Position numbers and translations under genes: made by a program. Below the pieces are notes generated by a model. That model searched no databases. It was not told the origin of the DNA and saw nothing but the letters and a program-made list of their open reading frames with translations. Shown piece after piece: positions 44,336 to 53,767 of a DNA stretch of 64,000 nt (the first letter of the stretch is position 1; each line of letters begins with the position of its first letter). Origin of the DNA: Acidobacteriota bacterium (lineage in GTDB: Bacteria; Acidobacteriota; Thermoanaerobaculia; Gp7-AA8); NCBI GenBank assembly GCA_021325515.1, contig JAJPHC010000013.1, positions 250,001 to 314,000 on the forward strand. The letters are read 5' to 3'.

Positions 44336-45019
44336 CTACACCGGCTCGGCGATGAACCGGTATCCGATCCACGGCTCGGTCACGATGTATTGCGGATTGG
44401 AGCTGTCCGGCTCGAGCTTTCTCCGCAGCGCGCCGACATGTACACGCACGGCATCGTTCGATGTGCCCGGCGCTCCGTTCCAGACATTCGCGACGATCTC
44501 GTCGAATGACACGGGCCGGCCCGCGCGGCGCGCCAGCAATTCGAGAATCGCAAACTCCGTCGGCGTGAGCCGCACCTCGCGCTCTCCCTGCGTCACCTTG
44601 TGGCGCTCCACGTCGATGATGAGATCGGGGAACTCGAGCTGCATCCGCTGCGGTGCGCCGGCGCGGCGCAATTGTGCGCGCACGCGGGCCAACAGTTCCG
44701 GCGTCGAGAACGGCTTCACCACGAAGTCGTCGGCGCCGAGGTCGAGAGCGCGAACTTTGTCGACATCGCCGCCGCGGACGGAGAGCACGAGGATCGGCGT
44801 CGCGTTCTTCTCGCGGATCCGTTGAATCAGCCAGAAGCCATCGGCGCGCGGCATCGCGAGATCGGAGAGCACGAGATCGGGATGCGCAATCGCGAACTGC
44901 ACGAGACCGTCGACGCCGTCGCTGGCCGTCGTCACATCGAATCCGTGCAAGCCGAGATGCTGCTCGAGCTCCTTGCGAATGCCCTCATCGTCGTCGACGA
45001 CGAGAATGCGCGCGGTCAT
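44336..45019 (-). CDS. KdpE-like OmpR-family response regulator
   Basis: This 227-aa protein has a receiver (1-115; LVVDDDEG, Asp in LVLSDLAMPRADG, Lys in VVKPFSTPEL) and a winged-helix output domain (about 130-225; LTPTEFAILELLA, VRVHVGALRRKLE). Its ATG overlaps the kinase stop by 2 bp. The pair matches KdpDE in design and order, but no kdpFABC genes are next to it. Its likely target is the operon carrying the KimA-like transporter. Confidence 0.9.
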   Translation of the reverse strand: MTARILVVDDDEGIRKELEQHLGLHGFDVTTASDGVDGLVQFAIAHPDLVLSDLAMPRADGFWLIQRIREKNATPILVLSVRGGDVDKVRALDLGADDFVVKPFSTPELLARVRAQLRRAGAPQRMQLEFPDLIIDVERHKVTQGEREVRLTPTEFAILELLARRAGRPVSFDEIVANVWNGAPGTSNDAVRVHVGALRRKLEPDSSNPQYIVTEPWIGYRFIAEPV

Positions 45020-46446
45020 GCGGGTACCTCTTCCGCGACCATCGGCAGCAGAGCCGCGGGAAGATCGATGCGTGCGATCGCGCCGCCGCCCGGGCGATTG
45101 GCGAGCGTGACCTGGCCGCCGCTGGCGCTGGCGAGACTGCGCGCGATCTCGAGTCCGAGCCCGCGCCGCGACGTGTCACTCGGCAGTTCCACCGGCAGCC
45201 CCGGTCCGTGATCGGCGATCTCCAGCCGCACGCGGTCGTGCTCCAGCGGATGTCGAAATGCGGAGAGCTCGATCGGAGTTCCGGCCGGCGCCGCCTGATG
45301 CGCGTTCTCGATCAGATTCGCGAGGATCTCCAGCGCGAGCGATGGATCGACGAAGATCTCCGGGCAATCCGCCGCGACCTGGATCTCGAGCCGCCGATGC
45401 TGCGCGACGAGCGGGAGATGCTCGCGTGCGAAGCGGAAGAGATCGGCCGCAGGTGTCGGCTCCGGATGCGGCATCACGCTGCGCGCCTCGAGCCGCGCCA
45501 TCGCCAGGAGGTTCTCGATGCGGCGCCGCAGCCGCCCGGTGTGCTCGGCGATGTCGTGCACGACGCCGAGCGCGTCGCCATCGACGAGCGATCGCAGCCG
45601 TTCGATCTGCAGTGCGACCGCAGTGAGCGGCGTCGCGAGATCGTGCGAGACCGCGCGCAGCAGCGACGTCTTCAGCGCATCTCCTTCTTCCAGCGCCTGC
45701 ATGTGCGCCGTCTCGGCGAGGAATCGCTCGCGCTCGACGGCCAGCGCGACGAGTGTCGCGGCGGATTCGAGTGCGCTCAGCGTCGCCTTCGTTCCGCGCG
45801 CAGCGAGCACGCCGATCACCTTTCCGCCGATGTTGAGCGGCAGATAGACATCGCGGCCATGTGCCGCAGGAAACTCCACGGGCCGGTCGTGGCGTCCCGA
45901 GCCGGCGATGAGATCTTCGATCTCCTCTTCCTTCGAGCCGCTCCAGGAGATGACCTTTTGATCGTAGGGACTGATGCCGAAGAGCACGAGCCCGCCGCCG
46001 CTCGCGCCGGCGTTGGTCAGCACGCGTGTCGTCGCTTCGCCGAGGGCACCGACGCGGTTCGTGGCGGTGAAGAGATCGACGCTGAGCGCGTAAAGCGCCT
46101 CGACCTCCCGTCTGCGCGCCTCCGCGCTCTCGGCCAGCGACCGCGCTCGTACCACGAGACGCGTCACGACGACCGATGCGGAGAAGAACGTCGTCAGGGC
46201 GATCCAGTTCGACGGATCGGAGATCGTGAACGTATGAAGCGGCGGAAGGAAGTTGTAGTTGTAGAAGAGTGTGGCGACGAGCGAGCTGACGAGCGACGTC
46301 GCGAGATCGGTCCAGAGCGCGACAGCGAGAATCGTCACGAGAAAGATGTAGCCCACCGTGGCGGCATTGGATCCGCCGCGAAGTGCAGCCCAACCGACCA
46401 TGACGACGACCAGTTGCGCGAAAACGAATCGGCCCGCGCGCCTCAT
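45016..46446 (-). CDS. KdpD-like histidine kinase lacking N-terminal sensor
   Basis: This 476-aa protein begins directly with a DUF4118-type four-helix membrane domain (about 5-105), as in the middle of KdpD. A GAF-like region follows (about 120-250), then HisKA (AVSHDLATPLTAV) and HATPase (ANLIENAHQAAP, RRGLGLEIARSLA). The KdpD N-terminal P-loop and USP domains are missing. ATG 46446 overlaps the transporter stop by 4 bp (ATGA), and the regulator start overlaps its own stop. Standalone USP genes flank the group. Confidence 0.9.
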   Translation of the reverse strand: MRRAGRFVFAQLVVVMVGWAALRGGSNAATVGYIFLVTILAVALWTDLATSLVSSLVATLFYNYNFLPPLHTFTISDPSNWIALTTFFSASVVVTRLVVRARSLAESAEARRREVEALYALSVDLFTATNRVGALGEATTRVLTNAGASGGGLVLFGISPYDQKVISWSGSKEEEIEDLIAGSGRHDRPVEFPAAHGRDVYLPLNIGGKVIGVLAARGTKATLSALESAATLVALAVERERFLAETAHMQALEEGDALKTSLLRAVSHDLATPLTAVALQIERLRSLVDGDALGVVHDIAEHTGRLRRRIENLLAMARLEARSVMPHPEPTPAADLFRFAREHLPLVAQHRRLEIQVAADCPEIFVDPSLALEILANLIENAHQAAPAGTPIELSAFRHPLEHDRVRLEIADHGPGLPVELPSDTSRRGLGLEIARSLASASGGQVTLANRPGGGAIARIDLPAALLPMVAEEVPA

Positions 46447-48404
46447 AACACTCGGATCGGCAACACCATCGCCTGAATTCCCTGGAACTGCAAGCGCCGC
46501 TGAATCGCATGCGGCGTCTCGTTGTGCAACACGCGGTGGTACCACTTCTCTTCGCGGAAGATGAGCCGTCCCATGAAGAAGATCGCGCGAGGGAACTCAG
46601 CCGCAAGCGCGACGCACAGCTCCTCGATCGTCGCCACCGCCTCGGTTCCCACCGCCATGCGGTAGTCGGCCTTCAGGCCGTTCGCCTGCGTCCACGCGAC
46701 GTACTTCTGGAGCTGCGCCTCCGTCTCCTGTTCGAGCCGGTCAATCTCTTCCGCCCCCTTGAACGTGCCGGAGTCGACCACCGCCGCGGAGACGAACATG
46801 AACTGCTTGAAGTACCCCGGAAACGACTTGTGAATCGACAGGATCTGGTGCAGTCCGAATCCCGAGAAGGAGGCGACGCTGATGACCGCGGTCGGCTGAT
46901 TCTTCTCCAGCGCCGACGGCTCGACCTGCTCGATCTGCCGCGGCAGCGGCACCGTCGTGAGGATGTCGTCGAGCCGCTTCAGCCCTTCACGAACGGCCTG
47001 ATAGTGGCGGTGTACCCAGAAGGCGAACGCGATCACGATGCTCGTGACGACGACGGTGATCCATCCGCCCTTCTCGAACTTCTCGAAGATGATGACGACG
47101 AGGATGCTGAGGCACATCACGAGACCGGTGCCATGAATCGCGAGCTGGCTCTTCCAGCGAGGCTCCTTCGCGCGATCCTTGATCCAGTGCCGCGACATCC
47201 CGAGCTCCGTCAACGAGAATGTGATGAAGACGTTGATCGAGTACATGACGACGAGCATTCCGATGTCGCCGCGCGTGTAGACGAGCGCCGCGATCGCGGC
47301 GAAGCCCATCAGGTAGATGCCGTTCTTCGTCACCAGCCGGTCGGAGAGCTGGCTGAAGCGATGCGGCATCCAGGAGTCTACGGCCATGTTCGCCAGCACG
47401 CGCGGCCCATCGAGAAAGCCGGCCTGTGCGGCGACGATCAGCAGCAGTCCTTCCGCGGCGAGGCTGATGATCACGAACGCCGGTCCGCCGTGGAACGAAG
47501 AGAAGAGGCGCTCGAGCATCACGGCGTTCATCGTCTTGCCGGCGGCCGGCGTCGAGCGCGTGAGCAGATAGCCGAACATGATGCCGCCGGCGGTGAACGC
47601 GAGCGAAAACGCCATCAGCGCCATCGTCCGCTTGCCGGTGCGGACGCGCGGCTCGCGCAACATCGACACGCCGTTGGAAACGGCTTCGATTCCAGTGTAC
47701 GTGCCGCCGCCGAGCGAATACGCGCGTAGCAGCAGGAGTGCGAGCGGTCCCCAGCCGAGGGTGCGCACCGAGGTGTGGAAGTCGATCGACGCATCGCGGA
47801 AGACCGACGGGAGTGCAGCGAAATGTGAGCCGATCGCGTAAAAGATGGCGATGACGTGCGTGGCGATGAAGAGCATGAAGATCGGCGTCAGGATGCTGAC
47901 CGACTCACGCACGCCGCGCAGATTGAGAATGATCAGGATCAGGATCAGCGCGAATTCCGCAGGCAGTTTGTACGTGCTGTAGTGACGCGGCAGGAACGAC
48001 CAGATCTGATCGCATGCGCTGGCGATCGACACCGTGATGGTGAGTACATAGTCGACGAGCAACGCGCAACCGGAGACGACGCCGGCGCGGCTGCCGAGGA
48101 GCTTGGAGGCAACGAGGTAGCCGCCGCCGCCGCCCGGAAAGTGCTGGATCAGATTCGAATACGCGATGGCGATCACCGTGATCGTGATCGCCGTCATCCC
48201 CACGAGGATGATCGAGAGGTGAAAGTGCCCGCCGAGCGTCTTGTAGGCCTCTTCCGGTCCATACGCGGATGACGACAGACCATCGGCCCCGAGGCCGACC
48301 CAGGCGAAGAAGGCGACGAGTGAGAGATGATGAAAGATCTGCGGGTCGTTGACGTCGCGCGGCGGCCCGATGATGAGGCGGCGGATCCTCTGCATCTCGC
48401 TCAC
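46443..48404 (-). CDS. KimA-like APC-family potassium transporter
   Basis: This 653-aa protein has an APC-family core of about twelve helices (FFAWVGLGADGLSSSAYGPEEA near helix 1, YSLGGGTYTGIEAVSNG in the middle). A cytosolic C-terminal domain follows (about 480-653; AVISVASFSGFGLHQILS) like that of KimA proteins, which import potassium with protons and bind cyclic di-AMP there. The GTG start (48402-48404) overlaps the USP stop. It is coupled to a KdpD/KdpE-like pair. Substrate potassium is inferred from family and context. Confidence 0.88.
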   Translation of the reverse strand: MSEMQRIRRLIIGPPRDVNDPQIFHHLSLVAFFAWVGLGADGLSSSAYGPEEAYKTLGGHFHLSIILVGMTAITITVIAIAYSNLIQHFPGGGGGYLVASKLLGSRAGVVSGCALLVDYVLTITVSIASACDQIWSFLPRHYSTYKLPAEFALILILIILNLRGVRESVSILTPIFMLFIATHVIAIFYAIGSHFAALPSVFRDASIDFHTSVRTLGWGPLALLLLRAYSLGGGTYTGIEAVSNGVSMLREPRVRTGKRTMALMAFSLAFTAGGIMFGYLLTRSTPAAGKTMNAVMLERLFSSFHGGPAFVIISLAAEGLLLIVAAQAGFLDGPRVLANMAVDSWMPHRFSQLSDRLVTKNGIYLMGFAAIAALVYTRGDIGMLVVMYSINVFITFSLTELGMSRHWIKDRAKEPRWKSQLAIHGTGLVMCLSILVVIIFEKFEKGGWITVVVTSIVIAFAFWVHRHYQAVREGLKRLDDILTTVPLPRQIEQVEPSALEKNQPTAVISVASFSGFGLHQILSIHKSFPGYFKQFMFVSAAVVDSGTFKGAEEIDRLEQETEAQLQKYVAWTQANGLKADYRMAVGTEAVATIEELCVALAAEFPRAIFFMGRLIFREEKWYHRVLHNETPHAIQRRLQFQGIQAMVLPIRVL

Positions 48405-48763
48405 TGTTCCGCTCCTTCGCTGGCGATCACGACATCGAAGGGCCGCGTTGCACCGAGAAGACGCTCGGTCGTTCCGCGCCGAAGCCAGCGGAGAAGGCGC
48501 GGCCTGCGCGAACGGCCGATGACGAGGAACCGTGCCTGCTCCCGGCAGGTGAGCTCGATCAGCGCCGATGCGACGTCGCTCGCCTCCTCGGAGACGAGCC
48601 GTCCGCCGAGACCGGAGACGAGGTCGGCGAGATCGCGGGAGGGATGGCGCGCGATGCGGAACGCGACCCAGTCGAAGTTGAAGAATCGTGCGATGCGGCG
48701 GCCGCGCGTGATGATCGCGCGGGCGCGCTCGAGATCGGATGGTATGGCGATTGCGACGCTCAC
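48401..48763 (-). CDS. USP-like protein (KdpD-type UspA domain)
   Basis: This 120-aa protein begins VSVAIAIPSDLERARAII and ends TRPFDVVIASEGAEQ, with FLVIGRSRRPRL before it. It is similar in length and ends to the USP gene at 43881. The GTG start at 48763 is chosen because it aligns with that gene's start; an upstream reading to 48835 has no family support. It is the first gene of the potassium-type operon. Confidence 0.75.
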   Translation of the reverse strand: MSVAIAIPSDLERARAIITRGRRIARFFNFDWVAFRIARHPSRDLADLVSGLGGRLVSEEASDVASALIELTCREQARFLVIGRSRRPRLLRWLRRGTTERLLGATRPFDVVIASEGAEQ

Positions 48764-48891
48764 GATCCGATTCTCGTGAGCGCGGCGAAAGAAGTCCGGA
48801 AGATGGGCGAAAGAACATCGAAGGGCTCCAGCCATGAGATACTTCCGGAAGTTTCAGCGGTCGTGTTCGAGGAAACCCTGTGCTCGAAGCG

Positions 48892-49422
48892 ATGCCCATT
48901 CCTTCGCAATGTGAACCTGTCCCTGGGACAGAGCGTGATCCTGCCGCGCTCTATCTGGAGCACCGCCGCCTGCTCCTCCATGTCGCGATCAACAAATTCC
49001 GCGTTCCGGATGCCGATGCGGAGAATCTTCTGCAGGATGTGTTCGTCTCCTTCCTGCAGAGCGGGCGGCGTGTCGAGAATGTGCGCGCGTGGCTCGTGGC
49101 GGCGGTGTGCAATGCAAGCCGGCACTACTGGCGCATGCACTCGCGCACGGAGCAGTTGCCGGAGAATGTCGTCGAGCGCGCCGATCCCTGTTCCCAGCAT
49201 CTCGCGGAACAGGTCGCGCTGCGCATGACGGTGAAGCAGGCGCTCGGCTATCTTCCGCAGCGCTGCCGCGAGACGCTGCACCTTCATTACTTCGAAGGCC
49301 GCTCGGCATCGGATGTCGCCAACGTGCTGGAGACGACGAGCCGCTACGCGGAGAAGCTGATCCACAACTGTCTGCAACGTGTACGCGAGACGTACCGGCG
49401 GATCATGACGGTGCATTCATGA
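48892..49422 (+). CDS. ECF sigma factor (cassette A)
   Basis: This 176-aa protein has a sigma70 region 2 (about 15-85; LEHRRLLLHVAINKF, NLLQDVFVSFL, VRAWLVAAVCNASRHYWR) and a sigma70 region 4 (about 112-168; ALGYLPQRCRETLHLHYFEG, SASDVANVLETTSRYAEKLI). ATG 48892 is chosen over a GTG four codons upstream. Its stop overlaps the TPR gene start by 4 bp (ATGA). It is the first half of cassette A. It should direct RNA polymerase to a small set of promoters. Confidence 0.92.
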   Translation: MPIPSQCEPVPGTERDPAALYLEHRRLLLHVAINKFRVPDADAENLLQDVFVSFLQSGRRVENVRAWLVAAVCNASRHYWRMHSRTEQLPENVVERADPCSQHLAEQVALRMTVKQALGYLPQRCRETLHLHYFEGRSASDVANVLETTSRYAEKLIHNCLQRVRETYRRIMTVHS

Positions 49423-50651
49423 ACCTGACCGACGAACAACTGTTCGCAGCGCTTGCCGATGAGGACGTGTGGAGCGCGGAGAATGAGAGCGAGCCGGATC
49501 CGGCGATCGTCGCGGCCTTGCGCGGCGTGGCGGTTCTGGTGGAAGAAGAAGACGAGGCCGCGGACGCGAATCTGCGCCTGCTGCTCGACGGACAGCGCGA
49601 TGGTTGGATGGCGCGGCTCAACGAGCATCCGGAGTGGCGCAGTGCGGGGCTCGCGCGGAAACTCTCCGCGCAATCGTACGCGGCACTCGATCGAATGCCG
49701 CCGGACGCGCTGGAGATCACCGCGATGGCGGTCGATGTCGCGGAGCATCTCGACGCGTCGCAATACTTGGAGGAGACTCGGCGGCAGTTGCTCGGCACCG
49801 CGTGGCGCGAGCGCGCGTATGGGTTGTTCTACGTCGGGCGATTCCATGAGGCGCTGGCCGCATGTGATCGCGCGGATCTCGCATTCGAAGAGTGCATCGG
49901 CGGCGATTACGAGCGTGCGCGCGTCGCGCTGACGCGAGCGCTCGCGCTGCGGCCGCTGGATCGAATCGATGAGGGCGAGGAGCTCGTGCGATGGGCGGCG
50001 GCGGTGTTCCGTGAGTATGGAGACGTCGAGCGCGTCGTGCTGGCGGTGATCACGGGTGTGCAGATGCTGGCGCGCCGCCACCAGTATCGGGCAGCGATCG
50101 AGCGTCTGCGCGAAGCGGAGGCCGATCATGGCGATGCGCTGAGCCTTCAGGCTCGCGCGACGCTGGAGGGGAACCTCGCCTATTGCTATCGCATGCTGGG
50201 CGATACCGGGAGGGCGATCGCGCACTATCACCTTGCGTCGGTGCTGCATCAGGAGCTCGGCTCGGCGACCGAGGCGCTGCGCGACCGGTGGAACATCGCG
50301 GGACTGCTGATGGTGGCGGGCGACGCGGCCGAGGCGCTCCGGGCGCTGGAGGCGGTCCGACCCGAGCTCGAGACGTTCTCGATGATGTCGGAAGTCAACG
50401 TGCTCGATCTCGAACGGGCGGAGCTGCTCGTGGCGATGGAACGCTTCGACGAAGCGATCGCGATCTGCCTCGCGTTGCGCACGCGTCTCGCGGAGTCCGG
50501 CCTCAGCACGAGCACACGCGCGTTGACCGCGGTCGCCTATCTCGCCGAAGCGCTGCAGTCGCGTGCCGCGACGGCGAAGGTCGTGCGGCATGTGCGCGAG
50601 TACGTGAGGCGACTGCCCGAAGAGCCAGAGCTGCTGTTCCTGCCGTTATAG
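49419..50651 (+). CDS. TPR protein coupled to ECF sigma factor (cassette A)
   Basis: This 410-aa cytoplasmic protein starts MNLTDEQLFAALADEDVW, close to the LTDEELLLVLEEES start of its counterpart in cassette B. TPR helical pairs fill about 125-390 (RAYGLFYVGRFHEALAACDRA, LAYCYRMLGDTGRAIAHYH, AGLLMVAGDAAEALRAL). No Cys motif and no transmembrane segment are present. The ATGA overlap with the sigma gene implies a stoichiometric partnership; an anti-sigma or peptide-sensing role is inferred. Confidence 0.85.
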   Translation: MNLTDEQLFAALADEDVWSAENESEPDPAIVAALRGVAVLVEEEDEAADANLRLLLDGQRDGWMARLNEHPEWRSAGLARKLSAQSYAALDRMPPDALEITAMAVDVAEHLDASQYLEETRRQLLGTAWRERAYGLFYVGRFHEALAACDRADLAFEECIGGDYERARVALTRALALRPLDRIDEGEELVRWAAAVFREYGDVERVVLAVITGVQMLARRHQYRAAIERLREAEADHGDALSLQARATLEGNLAYCYRMLGDTGRAIAHYHLASVLHQELGSATEALRDRWNIAGLLMVAGDAAEALRALEAVRPELETFSMMSEVNVLDLERAELLVAMERFDEAIAICLALRTRLAESGLSTSTRALTAVAYLAEALQSRAATAKVVRHVREYVRRLPEEPELLFLPL

Positions 50652-50803
50652 CCGGCGTGCGCGAATCCCTCGCGCCACAACCTTCTCCGTTCGTATTGAG
50701 AAGCCGCCGATCCATTCCTCGCGAATCACGGTAGGGGTTTTTTCCTCCCCGTCACTCCCTGTCTGAAGAGTGCGCGCCCTCTTGAAAAAAAACGGAGGGC
50801 GAA

Positions 50804-50980
50804 ATGACAAGGAAGACGTTTGCGGTAGCACTCCTCACAAGTGTTGTTCTGCTGAGCACGCCGGCCGTTGCCGCGCAGCGCGATGATCCGCGCGATCCAA
50901 TCACACGAATCGTCCGGTACCTGAAGAAGGTCATCAGGGTCATCACACTGGATGACGGGATGACGCCGCCGAAACCCTGA
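50804..50980 (+). CDS. 58-aa secreted peptide
   Basis: This short ORF has a strong GGAGGG ribosome site 5 nt before the ATG and a textbook signal peptide (MTRKTFAVALLTSVVLLS then TPAVAA, with an AxA cleavage site). The predicted mature peptide is about 34 residues: QRDDPRDP, then a basic amphipathic stretch (TRIVRYLKKVIRVI), then LDDGMTPPKP. It lies 152 bp after the cassette A TPR gene and 4 bp from the convergent cassette B TPR stop. It could be a signal peptide ligand for the TPR proteins, or a small toxin or bacteriocin-like product. Codon use looks normal. Confidence 0.7.
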   Translation: MTRKTFAVALLTSVVLLSTPAVAAQRDDPRDPITRIVRYLKKVIRVITLDDGMTPPKP

Positions 50981-50984
50981 CGAT

Positions 50985-52289
50985 TCATTGCAGCGGCGGC
51001 TCGAACGTCACTTCGTCGCCGCGCACGCGTTGTTCGACGTAGTCGTGGACATATCGGACGAGTGCCGGCGTGGCTTCGTTGCCATTGACGGCGCGGCGCA
51101 GATAGTCGATCGCGTGTGCGGCGTCGATCTGCATCCCCTCGCGCGTGAAGAGCGCGGCAATGTGTGCGGCCAGCTGCGCGACCGTTGCCGTGTCGCCTTG
51201 CGCGAGGAGGATGCCGAGCGTGTCGAGATGAGCCATGGCGGCATCGGCGGTCATTCCGAGTTGTTCGAATCGCGACGCGGCATCGCGCAGATAGTGCAGC
51301 GCTTTGTCAGGGTCGGTCTCTGACAGAGCGTCGCCGATGCTCCATTGCAGGCGCACCGCTTCGCTCGGCATCTCGAGCTGCTCGTAGAGCGTGGTCGCCC
51401 GCTCCGCATGTTCACGCGCCGTGGCGAAGTCGCCGAGGCGCAGATCGCAACTGGCGATGTTGTGATACTGCCGCGCCAGCGATTCCATGTCGTCGAAGCG
51501 GTCGGCGGCGGCAGCGACTTCGCGGAAGATCTCGCGCGCCGCGGCGATATCGCCTTCGTCGTAGAGCACCACGCCTTCCACGCCGCGCACATGGGAGAGA
51601 TGAATCTCGTCTCCGTAGGCCTGAAACGTCTTCGCCGCCGATTGCAGCTCGCGCTTCGCCTCGCTGAAGCGCTTCATCGTCGAGTAGATGCTTCCGCGGC
51701 ACCAGGCGACGAACGCCAGGTCGTAGGCCGGCACCGGCAGTGTGCGATAGAGCTGTTCCGCGCGATCGATGGCAGCCAGCGCGGCGTGAAAGTCGCCGAG
51801 CAGCCGGTACGCATTCGCGCGCTGTTTGTACAGCTCCGCCTCCGTGCTGACGGCCGGAGGCTTGATCACCGCCAGGACCTTCGCTGCCAGATCGAGGATC
51901 GCCTGCGCGTCGCGCGGTGACTGGTGAAAGCGTGCGCGGGCGGCATCGATCAGCGCGGCTGCCAGGCCGCTGCTCTGCGGAAGATTGCGCAGCGTTTCCG
52001 GCCAGTCGGCGATTGCAACCGCGTCGAGCTGCTCGATCGTTTCATGCGCCTGCTGCGCTTCGGAACGAAGCCGTACGTCGAGTGCGATGATGCCGGCGAG
52101 ATCGTTCGACATCGGCGGTGGCGTGACCGTCATTGGTACCTCATCCCACAGCTCCGGTTTCCGGAGCTTGTCCAGCCAGTCGGCCATCTGGTCGAGCCGC
52201 TCGCTGCACTGAATGCAGTCCGGCCGGGGAGGCGATTCCTCCTCAAGCACGAGCAGAAGCTCTTCATCGGTGAGATGACGATGGATCAA
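50985..52289 (-). CDS. TPR protein coupled to ECF sigma factor (cassette B)
   Basis: This 434-aa protein starts at a TTG (52287-52289) that overlaps the sigma stop (TTGA). The N-terminus (IHRHLTDEELLLVLEEES) is followed by CIQC (about 26-29) and a helical linker (SERLDQMADWLDKLRK), like the zinc-binding anti-sigma (ZAS) knuckle. TPR-type helices fill about 150-410 (QRANAYRLLGDFHAALAAID, IASCDLRLGDFATAREHAE). An anti-sigma role is therefore plausible. The reading to 52436 is longer but lacks a conserved start. Confidence 0.82.
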   Translation of the reverse strand: MIHRHLTDEELLLVLEEESPPRPDCIQCSERLDQMADWLDKLRKPELWDEVPMTVTPPPMSNDLAGIIALDVRLRSEAQQAHETIEQLDAVAIADWPETLRNLPQSSGLAAALIDAARARFHQSPRDAQAILDLAAKVLAVIKPPAVSTEAELYKQRANAYRLLGDFHAALAAIDRAEQLYRTLPVPAYDLAFVAWCRGSIYSTMKRFSEAKRELQSAAKTFQAYGDEIHLSHVRGVEGVVLYDEGDIAAAREIFREVAAAADRFDDMESLARQYHNIASCDLRLGDFATAREHAERATTLYEQLEMPSEAVRLQWSIGDALSETDPDKALHYLRDAASRFEQLGMTADAAMAHLDTLGILLAQGDTATVAQLAAHIAALFTREGMQIDAAHAIDYLRRAVNGNEATPALVRYVHDYVEQRVRGDEVTFEPPLQ

Positions 52290-52771
52290 CTGGAACCTCG
52301 CGTGAAAAGCGCGCGGGCCCGCGCGAGACAACGATGGACGATCTGTTTGACGTTGTTGGCGTTCGTCCCGAGCCGCGTCGCGGCTTCCTCGGTCGAGTAT
52401 CCCTCGACAAACCGAAGTCGCAGAGCGTAGCGGCACTGACTCGACAGTTGTCCGAGGACAGCCACCAGGTCGGCCCGCTCGGCGACCGGATCGGGGGGAA
52501 TACTCGCATCGGACACCAGAGATGCCGGCACCTTCGCTGACAGGTAGTCGCGGCAGGCGTTGTACATGGCGGCAACGAGCCAGGAGCGCTCATCGCGAAT
52601 GCGGTCGCGATTCCGCAGATAAGAGACGAAGACGTCATGCACGAGCGGCCGGACGTCCTCGCGCGGCACGTGAAACCGGATCGCCGCCACATACTCCAGC
52701 AGCCTGTAGACGCCGGCGTAGACCGCCGCCGTGTGCTCTTCAGCCCCTGCAGCCTTGAGTGGTCTCGCCAT
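52286..52771 (-). CDS. ECF sigma factor (cassette B)
   Basis: This 161-aa protein has a sigma70 region 2 (about 18-80; EYVAAIRFHVPREDVRPLVH, DVFVSYLRNRDRI, SWLVAAMYNACRDYL) and a region 4 (about 100-155; QLSSQCRYALRLRFVEGYS, EEAATRLGTNANNVKQI). ATG 52771 has GAGGA just upstream. It is paralogous in layout to cassette A and points in the opposite direction, so the two cassettes converge near 50980. A 20-codon micro-ORF is divergent from it. Confidence 0.92.
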   Translation of the reverse strand: MARPLKAAGAEEHTAAVYAGVYRLLEYVAAIRFHVPREDVRPLVHDVFVSYLRNRDRIRDERSWLVAAMYNACRDYLSAKVPASLVSDASIPPDPVAERADLVAVLGQLSSQCRYALRLRFVEGYSTEEAATRLGTNANNVKQIVHRCLARARALFTRGSS

Positions 52772-52851
52772 CTTCCTCTCGCATGATCGCAGGACCGTGT
52801 GTAACCGAATCGCTCGATCCAGGACTGCTCTCTCCGGAAAGGAGAAAGCTC

Positions 52852-52914
52852 ATGGACGTACTGCTGATCGAACTGCTGATTCTGATGGGCAAGTTGTCGA
52901 TTCCCAATCCATAG
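52852..52914 (+). CDS. 20-codon micro-ORF with strong ribosome site
   Basis: A strong GGAGA lies 7 nt before ATG 52852, followed by 20 codons encoding MDVLLIELLILMGKLSIPNP and a TAG stop. The peptide is hydrophobic and ends PNP, compared with PPKP at the end of the 58-aa peptide. It is divergent from the cassette B sigma gene and ends 36 bp before a hairpin. It may be a signalling or leader peptide, or chance. No homologue is known to me. Confidence 0.4.
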   Translation: MDVLLIELLILMGKLSIPNP

Positions 52915-53639: not shown

Positions 53640-53652
53640 GGATGGGGGAATG

Positions 53653-53744
53653 GGACTATGGGACCTATAGGACCTATGGGACCTATAGGCGGAAGGTGAC
53701 GTTGCCGCCTATAGGTCCCATAGGTCCTATAGGTCCCATAGTCC
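53653..53744. repeat. Perfect 40-bp palindromic 9-mer element
   Basis: Two arms of 40 bp (53653-53692 and 53705-53744) are perfect inverse complements around a 12-nt loop. Each arm is built of GGGACCTAT/AGGACCTAT units ending TATAGGCGG. It shares unit and centre (TAGGCGGAA) with the copy at 12416-12506. It lies between the PilZ gene start and the ABC ATPase stop. On transcription it would form a very stable hairpin. Confidence 0.95.
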
Positions 53745-53767
53745 TATCCTCCCATTCTGACATCCAT

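Follow-up and report, generated by a model that had tools for sequence, protein, structure and literature searches.

In this study, we show that two cassettes face each other within a 64,000-nucleotide stretch of contig JAJPHC010000013.1 (hereafter the window) from an Acidobacteriota bacterium of the Thermoanaerobaculia, a class with soil Acidobacteriota. Each cassette consists of a gene for an extracytoplasmic function (ECF) sigma factor and a gene for a tetratricopeptide repeat (TPR) protein, and small peptide genes lie beside them (Table 1). A preceding sequence-only reading had described two sigma/TPR pairs with 4-bp overlaps in convergent layout, a 58-aa secreted peptide gene between them and, divergent from the second sigma gene, a 20-codon micro-open reading frame (micro-ORF) with a strong ribosome site. 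All of these elements are present, the pairs being confirmed by ORF coordinates, Pfam and NCBIfam, and the peptide genes by their Shine–Dalgarno (SD) sequences and, for the 58-aa peptide, by a signal-like N-terminus. The overlap reads ATGA in the first cassette and TTGA in the second, which sets the start of TPR2 at TTG. Both sigma proteins fit the ECF criterion of having sigma domains 2 and 4 only and match NCBIfam sigma70-ECF above its cut-off; in Pfam, Sigma70_r2 and Sigma70_r4_2 are both above cut-off in sigma factor 1, and in sigma factor 2 Sigma70_r4_2 is above cut-off and r2 weak (below cut-off). Both TPR proteins have TPR matches above the Pfam cut-off and are each other's sole matches at E < 0.001 in their own 5.4-Mb genome.

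Table 1. Coordinates of the cassette genes and associated elements in the window
Feature	Position	Strand	Remarks
ECF sigma factor 1	48880..49422	+	GTG start; alternative ATG 48892
TPR1, zinc anti-sigma (ZAS)-TPR anti-sigma family, 410 aa	49419..50651	+	HHCC core deleted
ECF-type promoter GGTAGGG-N14-GTCACTC of 58-aa peptide gene	50730..50757	+	sole window match, 0 expected
Imperfect inverted repeat AAGAGTGCGCGCCCTCTT, 18 nt	50766..50783	.	looser version, at place of peptide-gene-specific GAGGGCGCCCTC palindrome
58-aa propeptide, predicted secreted	50804..50980	+	SD GGAGG; C-terminus MTPPKP
TPR2, ZAS-TPR protein, 434 aa	50985..52289	-	TTG start; H..CxxC partly kept
ECF sigma factor 2	52286..52771	-	Pfam and NCBIfam
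SD AAGGAG of micro-ORF	52839..52844	+	sequence
20-aa leaderless hydrophobic peptide MDVLLIELLILMGKLSIPNP	52852..52914	+	divergent from sigma factor 2; SD AAGGAG

The 58-aa peptide has a Lys/Arg n-region, a hydrophobic core and a cleavage-like AVAA site, and satisfies a simple signal-sequence rule. Behind the signal sequence it carries a basic amphipathic stretch, ITRIVRYLKKVIRVI, which is found in many relatives as well. The micro-ORF peptide lacks a signal sequence, and the two peptides have a C-terminal signature in common, ending in MTPPKP and LSIPNP, respectively. The peptide families had no counterpart in Pfam or NCBIfam; a TrbC/VirB2 pilin identity of the 58-aa peptide was rejected, as the match (E 5e-4) falls below the curated cut-off and is driven by the hydrophobic stretch. 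The divergent micro-ORF layout recurs at the loci of the two nearest TPR2 relatives, L063 (MLDFLINLWLDSRLSVPDG) and L084 (MLEVEIALLLLYLSIRISVPNG).

The peptide genes are a regular part of the cassettes. In a family of 18 genomes including that of the window (family f1; 60 loci fetched), an SD-led small ORF with a signal-like N-terminus lies directly downstream of the TPR gene in nearly every cassette. Same-family genomes hold 47 SD-led secreted small ORFs in the 42 kb that extend up to 700 bp downstream from TPR genes versus 11 in 398 kb elsewhere, and 40 versus 2 when a proline is required in the last four residues, a density about 190-fold higher. By a strict call, a peptide gene accompanies 42 of the 57 TPR genes of the family and order, with about six more recognized by eye and three cassettes at contig ends. 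The peptides of the family measure 40–120 aa or, in the micro form, 18–30 aa. Micro-ORFs with the C-terminal motif number five distinct examples in 670 kb scanned, all at most 77 bp from a cassette and three of them (window, L063, L084) divergent from the sigma gene. Given the density enrichment and the confinement of micro-ORFs to cassettes, these small genes are not chance ORFs; moreover, most of the peptide pairs compared differ mainly at third codon positions, which is consistent with coding ORFs. The best conserved part of the peptides is the C-terminus, with proline at −3 in 40 of 48, [ILM] at −6, S/T at −5 and P/G at −1. That relatives keep the peptide gene next to the same sigma/TPR pair, the check that the sequence-only reading had named, is thus strongly borne out, and the earlier observation is correct and greatly understated.

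The TPR proteins are predicted to act on the sigma factors encoded next to them. Among 70 TPR homologues at the 60 loci, 46 directly follow an ECF sigma gene, and in 34 of these the two genes overlap by exactly 4 bp. An N-terminal H..HxxxCxxC pattern is nearly invariant in these proteins (group A1; strict pattern in 37 of 57), and this HHCC motif is the signature of ZAS factors, which supports a putative inhibitor role for the family. The shared LTDE(E/Q)L N-terminus pointed out in the sequence-only reading is real and corresponds to helix 1 of the zinc-finger anti-sigma domain. The zf-HC2 domain was detected in 7 of 37 TPR proteins, and a profile of the domain retrieved RslA first (E 5e-4), followed by ChrR, DdvA and RsiW with weak E-values. 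Its closest relatives of solved structure, RslA and ChrR, are anti-sigma factors. When the modelled domain was searched with Foldseek, the top 11 matches were all anti-sigma chains, each weak alone (E 0.35 and up), and ChrR aligned with it at Z 7.5 over 59 residues (rmsd 5.7). TPR2 is modelled as a TPR superhelix (AF2 pLDDT 87) that best matches LGN (Z 28) and, among bacterial proteins, the Rap/NprR pheromone receptors (Z 21–24). TPR folds are common, and therefore this likeness permits peptide binding and does not prove it. The genome of the window also encodes at least six oligopeptide-binding proteins, which are potential peptide importers.

The upstream region of the 58-aa peptide gene links it to ECF-type transcription. 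Its GGTAGGG-N14-GTCACTC promoter is a perfect copy (15/15) of a consensus with three sites in the window's own genome and 113 in 14 relatives, versus none for a reversed-pattern control. The motif is present in 16 of the 18 family genomes and, outside the family, in one other genome of the class; it is missing in G003 and G012, whose only cassette is divergent. It also precedes sigma-TPR operons (L064, L065, L078, L088–L091, L096, L100) and other genes, namely those for small proteins and for outer-membrane and secreted proteins, so that it marks an ECF-type regulon. It is plausible that the cognate sigma factor reads this promoter. A second element is specific to peptide genes: a GGGC(GC)nCC palindrome, 14–18 nt past the start of the GTCAC element, occurs in 23 of 47 peptide upstream regions, with a background of 0.9% and a single case among 44 sigma operons. 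Separately, a conserved family of small proteins with the core 'LxYLexxxxxxNPDMPxAFGxPHxIRxxLdR' was seen under the same ECF-type promoter (L232, L242, L243, L245, L247, L248, L249, L254); its start codon lies close behind the −10 element, and the one member tested had no Pfam match.

Family f1 members carry from one to about 12 TPR homologues, and all nine named loci of the closer TPR set come from metagenome-assembled genomes of Acidobacteriota/Thermoanaerobaculia. A hidden Markov model search found strong relatives in 75 of 149 genomes of the class, with at least 11 copies in several; in a phylum sample at a strict cut-off, which leaves room for distant forms elsewhere, strong family matches were confined to this class. 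In families f12–f18, the partner peptide lies mostly upstream of the TPR gene, is acidic or neutral, contains DPxG repeats and ends in GxxDP(N/D)G; a promoter motif shared by these peptide genes was sought, and nothing rose above shuffled sequence. At least two copies of GxxDP(N/D)G are present in 13 of 48 precursors and at least three in 7 of 48, and as this set was chosen by the motif, the repeat counts alone are informative. Three to four tandem units stand beside ZAS-TPR genes at L138, L141, L202, L204, L211 and L223. A motif-free rule applied to other families placed 50 of 81 TPR genes near a secreted small ORF (51 such ORFs in 108 kb versus 6 in 254 kb). These properties bear on the view that the peptides are outputs, that is, secreted cationic amphipathic peptides (antimicrobial or membrane-active) under ECF control, with the TPR anti-sigma factor sensing another cue. 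Although the basic amphipathic stretch behind the signal sequence and the ECF-type promoter before the peptide gene would suit such a role, we regard it as unlikely: the micro-peptides carry the C-terminal motif although they lack both a signal sequence and a basic helix, the f12–f18 peptides are not basic, and the common denominator is a C-terminal tag, as fits a ligand. The joint loss of sigma and peptide in one TPR clade, described next, also argues against it.

Peptide architecture (downstream, convergent, divergent micro or none) requires 8 changes on the TPR tree versus 19.7 when shuffled. The TPR proteins of the micro-ORF cassettes in the window, L063 and L084 form one clade (support 100/98), and TPR1 belongs to a clade with L071, L075, L095, L099, L103 and L104. 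Four peptide-less TPR proteins, all of genome G008, also form one clade and have lost the sigma gene and the ZAS domain as well. At L115 and L116 (G013, G017) the TPR gene, with neither sigma gene nor ZAS domain, is coupled to a separate adjacent HTH_3 gene and faces a convergent peptide gene, an arrangement that resembles a split RRNPP transcription factor. Another clade (L070, L074, L085, L094) keeps the ZAS domain and the peptide genes, in four tandem copies at L085, and has no adjacent sigma gene; these TPR proteins possibly act on a sigma factor encoded elsewhere. Two further comparisons were set aside, a Mantel test of TPR versus C-terminus (r 0.22, p 0.0005) in which close pairs drive the signal, and TPR columns that distinguish PxP from PPG peptides, which are fully confounded with clade. 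It might be argued that the TPR anti-sigma factors answer to other ligands or partners and that the small secreted proteins encoded beside them are hitchhikers or unrelated, since TPR is a generic interaction domain and the shared promoter is not exclusive to peptides. However, a 40–190-fold density enrichment, conservation across families despite swapped gene order, an architecture that follows the tree and the coupled loss make this very improbable.

We therefore favor, as probable on the sequence evidence, a switch made of a sigma factor, a peptide-receptor anti-sigma factor and a propeptide, which in a diderm phylum would follow RRNPP-like logic with a sigma factor as output. The gene order and its conservation, the domains, the C-terminal motif, the promoter motif and the tracking of TPR clade by peptide type are direct observations. 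From these we infer binding of peptide to TPR and of TPR protein to sigma, release of sigma, export and re-import, and extracellular action. The cassette would comprise an ECF sigma factor, a small peptide gene and a soluble, translationally coupled anti-sigma factor in which a ZAS domain at the N-terminus is joined to a TPR superhelix at the C-terminus. The ZAS domain would sequester the sigma factor until the proline-marked C-terminal tail of the mature peptide docks in the TPR groove and alters the shape of the protein; this change would release the sigma factor and allow transcription of its regulon. That regulon may include the peptide gene, both in the window and in numerous relatives, and in several relatives the sigma-TPR operon, giving positive feedback. 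The signal would be exported, trimmed and re-imported in quorum or diffusion sensing, a route made probable by the Sec-type signal sequences of most peptides, and import could run through the oligopeptide-binding proteins. The micro-peptides, short and hydrophobic, may be a second precursor type, like the SHP precursors of Rgg systems. It is also conceivable that the system never leaves the cell and reports on export, in that failure of the Sec pathway would let unprocessed precursor accumulate in the cytosol, bind the TPR protein and free the sigma factor. Every peptide is indeed either signal-bearing or hydrophobic, outer-membrane and secreted proteins are among the regulon genes, and re-import into a diderm would be unnecessary. 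We nevertheless consider such a sensor quite unlikely, because one would be enough, yet there are up to a dozen cassettes per genome with diverging C-termini, and the tandem tail repeats resemble multi-copy pheromone precursors (PMC9765709, PMC11343458).

Several observations weigh against the proposed peptide-controlled switch. The suggestion in the sequence-only reading that the TPR proteins are anti-sigma factors holds for the family, which has the HHCC domain, and less well for the window: in TPR1 the HHCC core and most of the anti-sigma domain are gone, and TPR2 lacks one His and retains H and CxxC, so that the anti-sigma activity of both is uncertain. Taken singly, the Foldseek E-values for the domain are weak, and signal peptides throughout were called by the simple rule rather than by SignalP. 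The window genes for both sigma factors and the micro-ORF have no GGTAGGG-N14-GTCACTC promoter. This promoter type also stands before the peptide genes of the HTH-coupled TPR proteins (L115, L116) and before unrelated genes, and for this reason one common ECF sigma factor may own it rather than each cognate one. Many TPR proteins of families f12–f18 are without an adjacent sigma gene, and the clade tracking is partly plain co-inheritance. Peptide uptake in a diderm, moreover, requires a route through the outer membrane. The idea of a peptide signal read by TPR anti-sigma proteins is partly supported, its ligand part by the C-terminal and repeat motifs, clade tracking, coupled loss and the shared promoter, and its anti-sigma part by the HHCC domain of the family. 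As for its extension to class-wide peptide quorum sensing, in which ZAS-TPR proteins would read P-x-P/PPG or multi-copy GxxDP(N/D)G tails and free an ECF sigma factor, with peptide-gene feedback and a swappable output (sigma or HTH_3), we hold the case to be evenly balanced.

Elsewhere in the window, a 51-nt inverted repeat (53642–53755; 94% complementary, 12-nt loop, units CTATGGGACCTATAGG) lies directly upstream of a PilZ-domain gene, and positions 44336–48408 encode a KdpE/KdpD-like response regulator and a DUF4118 kinase adjoining an amino-acid permease gene.

This appears to be an undescribed peptide signalling system; a search of the open-access literature found no paper on TPR anti-sigma factors with peptides, subscription work (e.g., the 2021 ECF reclassification) being outside its reach. 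The soluble ZAS factors ChrR, RsrA and RslA likewise have an N-terminal HHCC zinc domain and a gene downstream of, and overlapping, the ECF sigma gene, but their sensor is a cupin or a redox-active zinc site, whereas here a TPR superhelix at the C-terminus would take that place and a peptide gene is associated. In ECF42, TPRs also regulate an ECF sigma factor (PMC8103513, PMC8999054), but as a C-terminal extension of the sigma protein itself that its activity requires, in contrast to a separate putative anti-sigma factor with a peptide partner. A TPR-containing protein, TPR-CHAT (Csx29), likewise stands in a sigma-factor pathway with Csx30 and RpoE of CRISPR-Cas7-11 (PMC10028731), but this is an RNA-triggered protease pathway with neither propeptide nor ZAS-TPR fusion. 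The closest parallel is the RRNPP/RRNPPA family (Rap-Phr, NprR-NprX, PlcR-PapR, Rgg-SHP, AimR-AimP), described for Firmicutes and Gram-positives (PMC10075063, PMC9765709), in which most propeptides hold the pheromone at the C-terminus (PMC9765709) and both multi-copy precursors and short hydrophobic ones occur (PMC9765709, PMC11343458). As there, a TPR protein of 250–500 aa adjoins a small propeptide, in most cases predicted to be secreted, which in the window is 58 or 20 aa long and so within the 10–100 aa size range of that family; the candidate signal is C-terminal, tandem-copy precursors occur, as do short hydrophobic ones like those of Rgg, and the superhelix is closest to Rap/NprR among bacterial proteins. 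The effector differs, being a ZAS domain with an ECF sigma factor instead of a fused helix-turn-helix (HTH) or Rap bundle, and the host is a diderm acidobacterium instead of a member of the Bacillota. By the criteria of PMC10075063, size, TPR and gene neighbourhood agree and the N-terminal HTH or Rap bundle on the receptor is absent, so that the module would work like RRNPP systems and is not a member. If true, the reading of a peptide by an anti-sigma factor would add a new mode of ECF sigma control and equip Acidobacteriota with a candidate cell–cell signalling language of as many as a dozen channels in one genome, and the peptide sequences, their candidate receptors and a promoter are now precisely defined for experimental tests. 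Unlike the cytoplasmic TPR pheromone receptors described for Bacillota and their mobile elements, this module would set peptide reading on an anti-sigma/ECF output.

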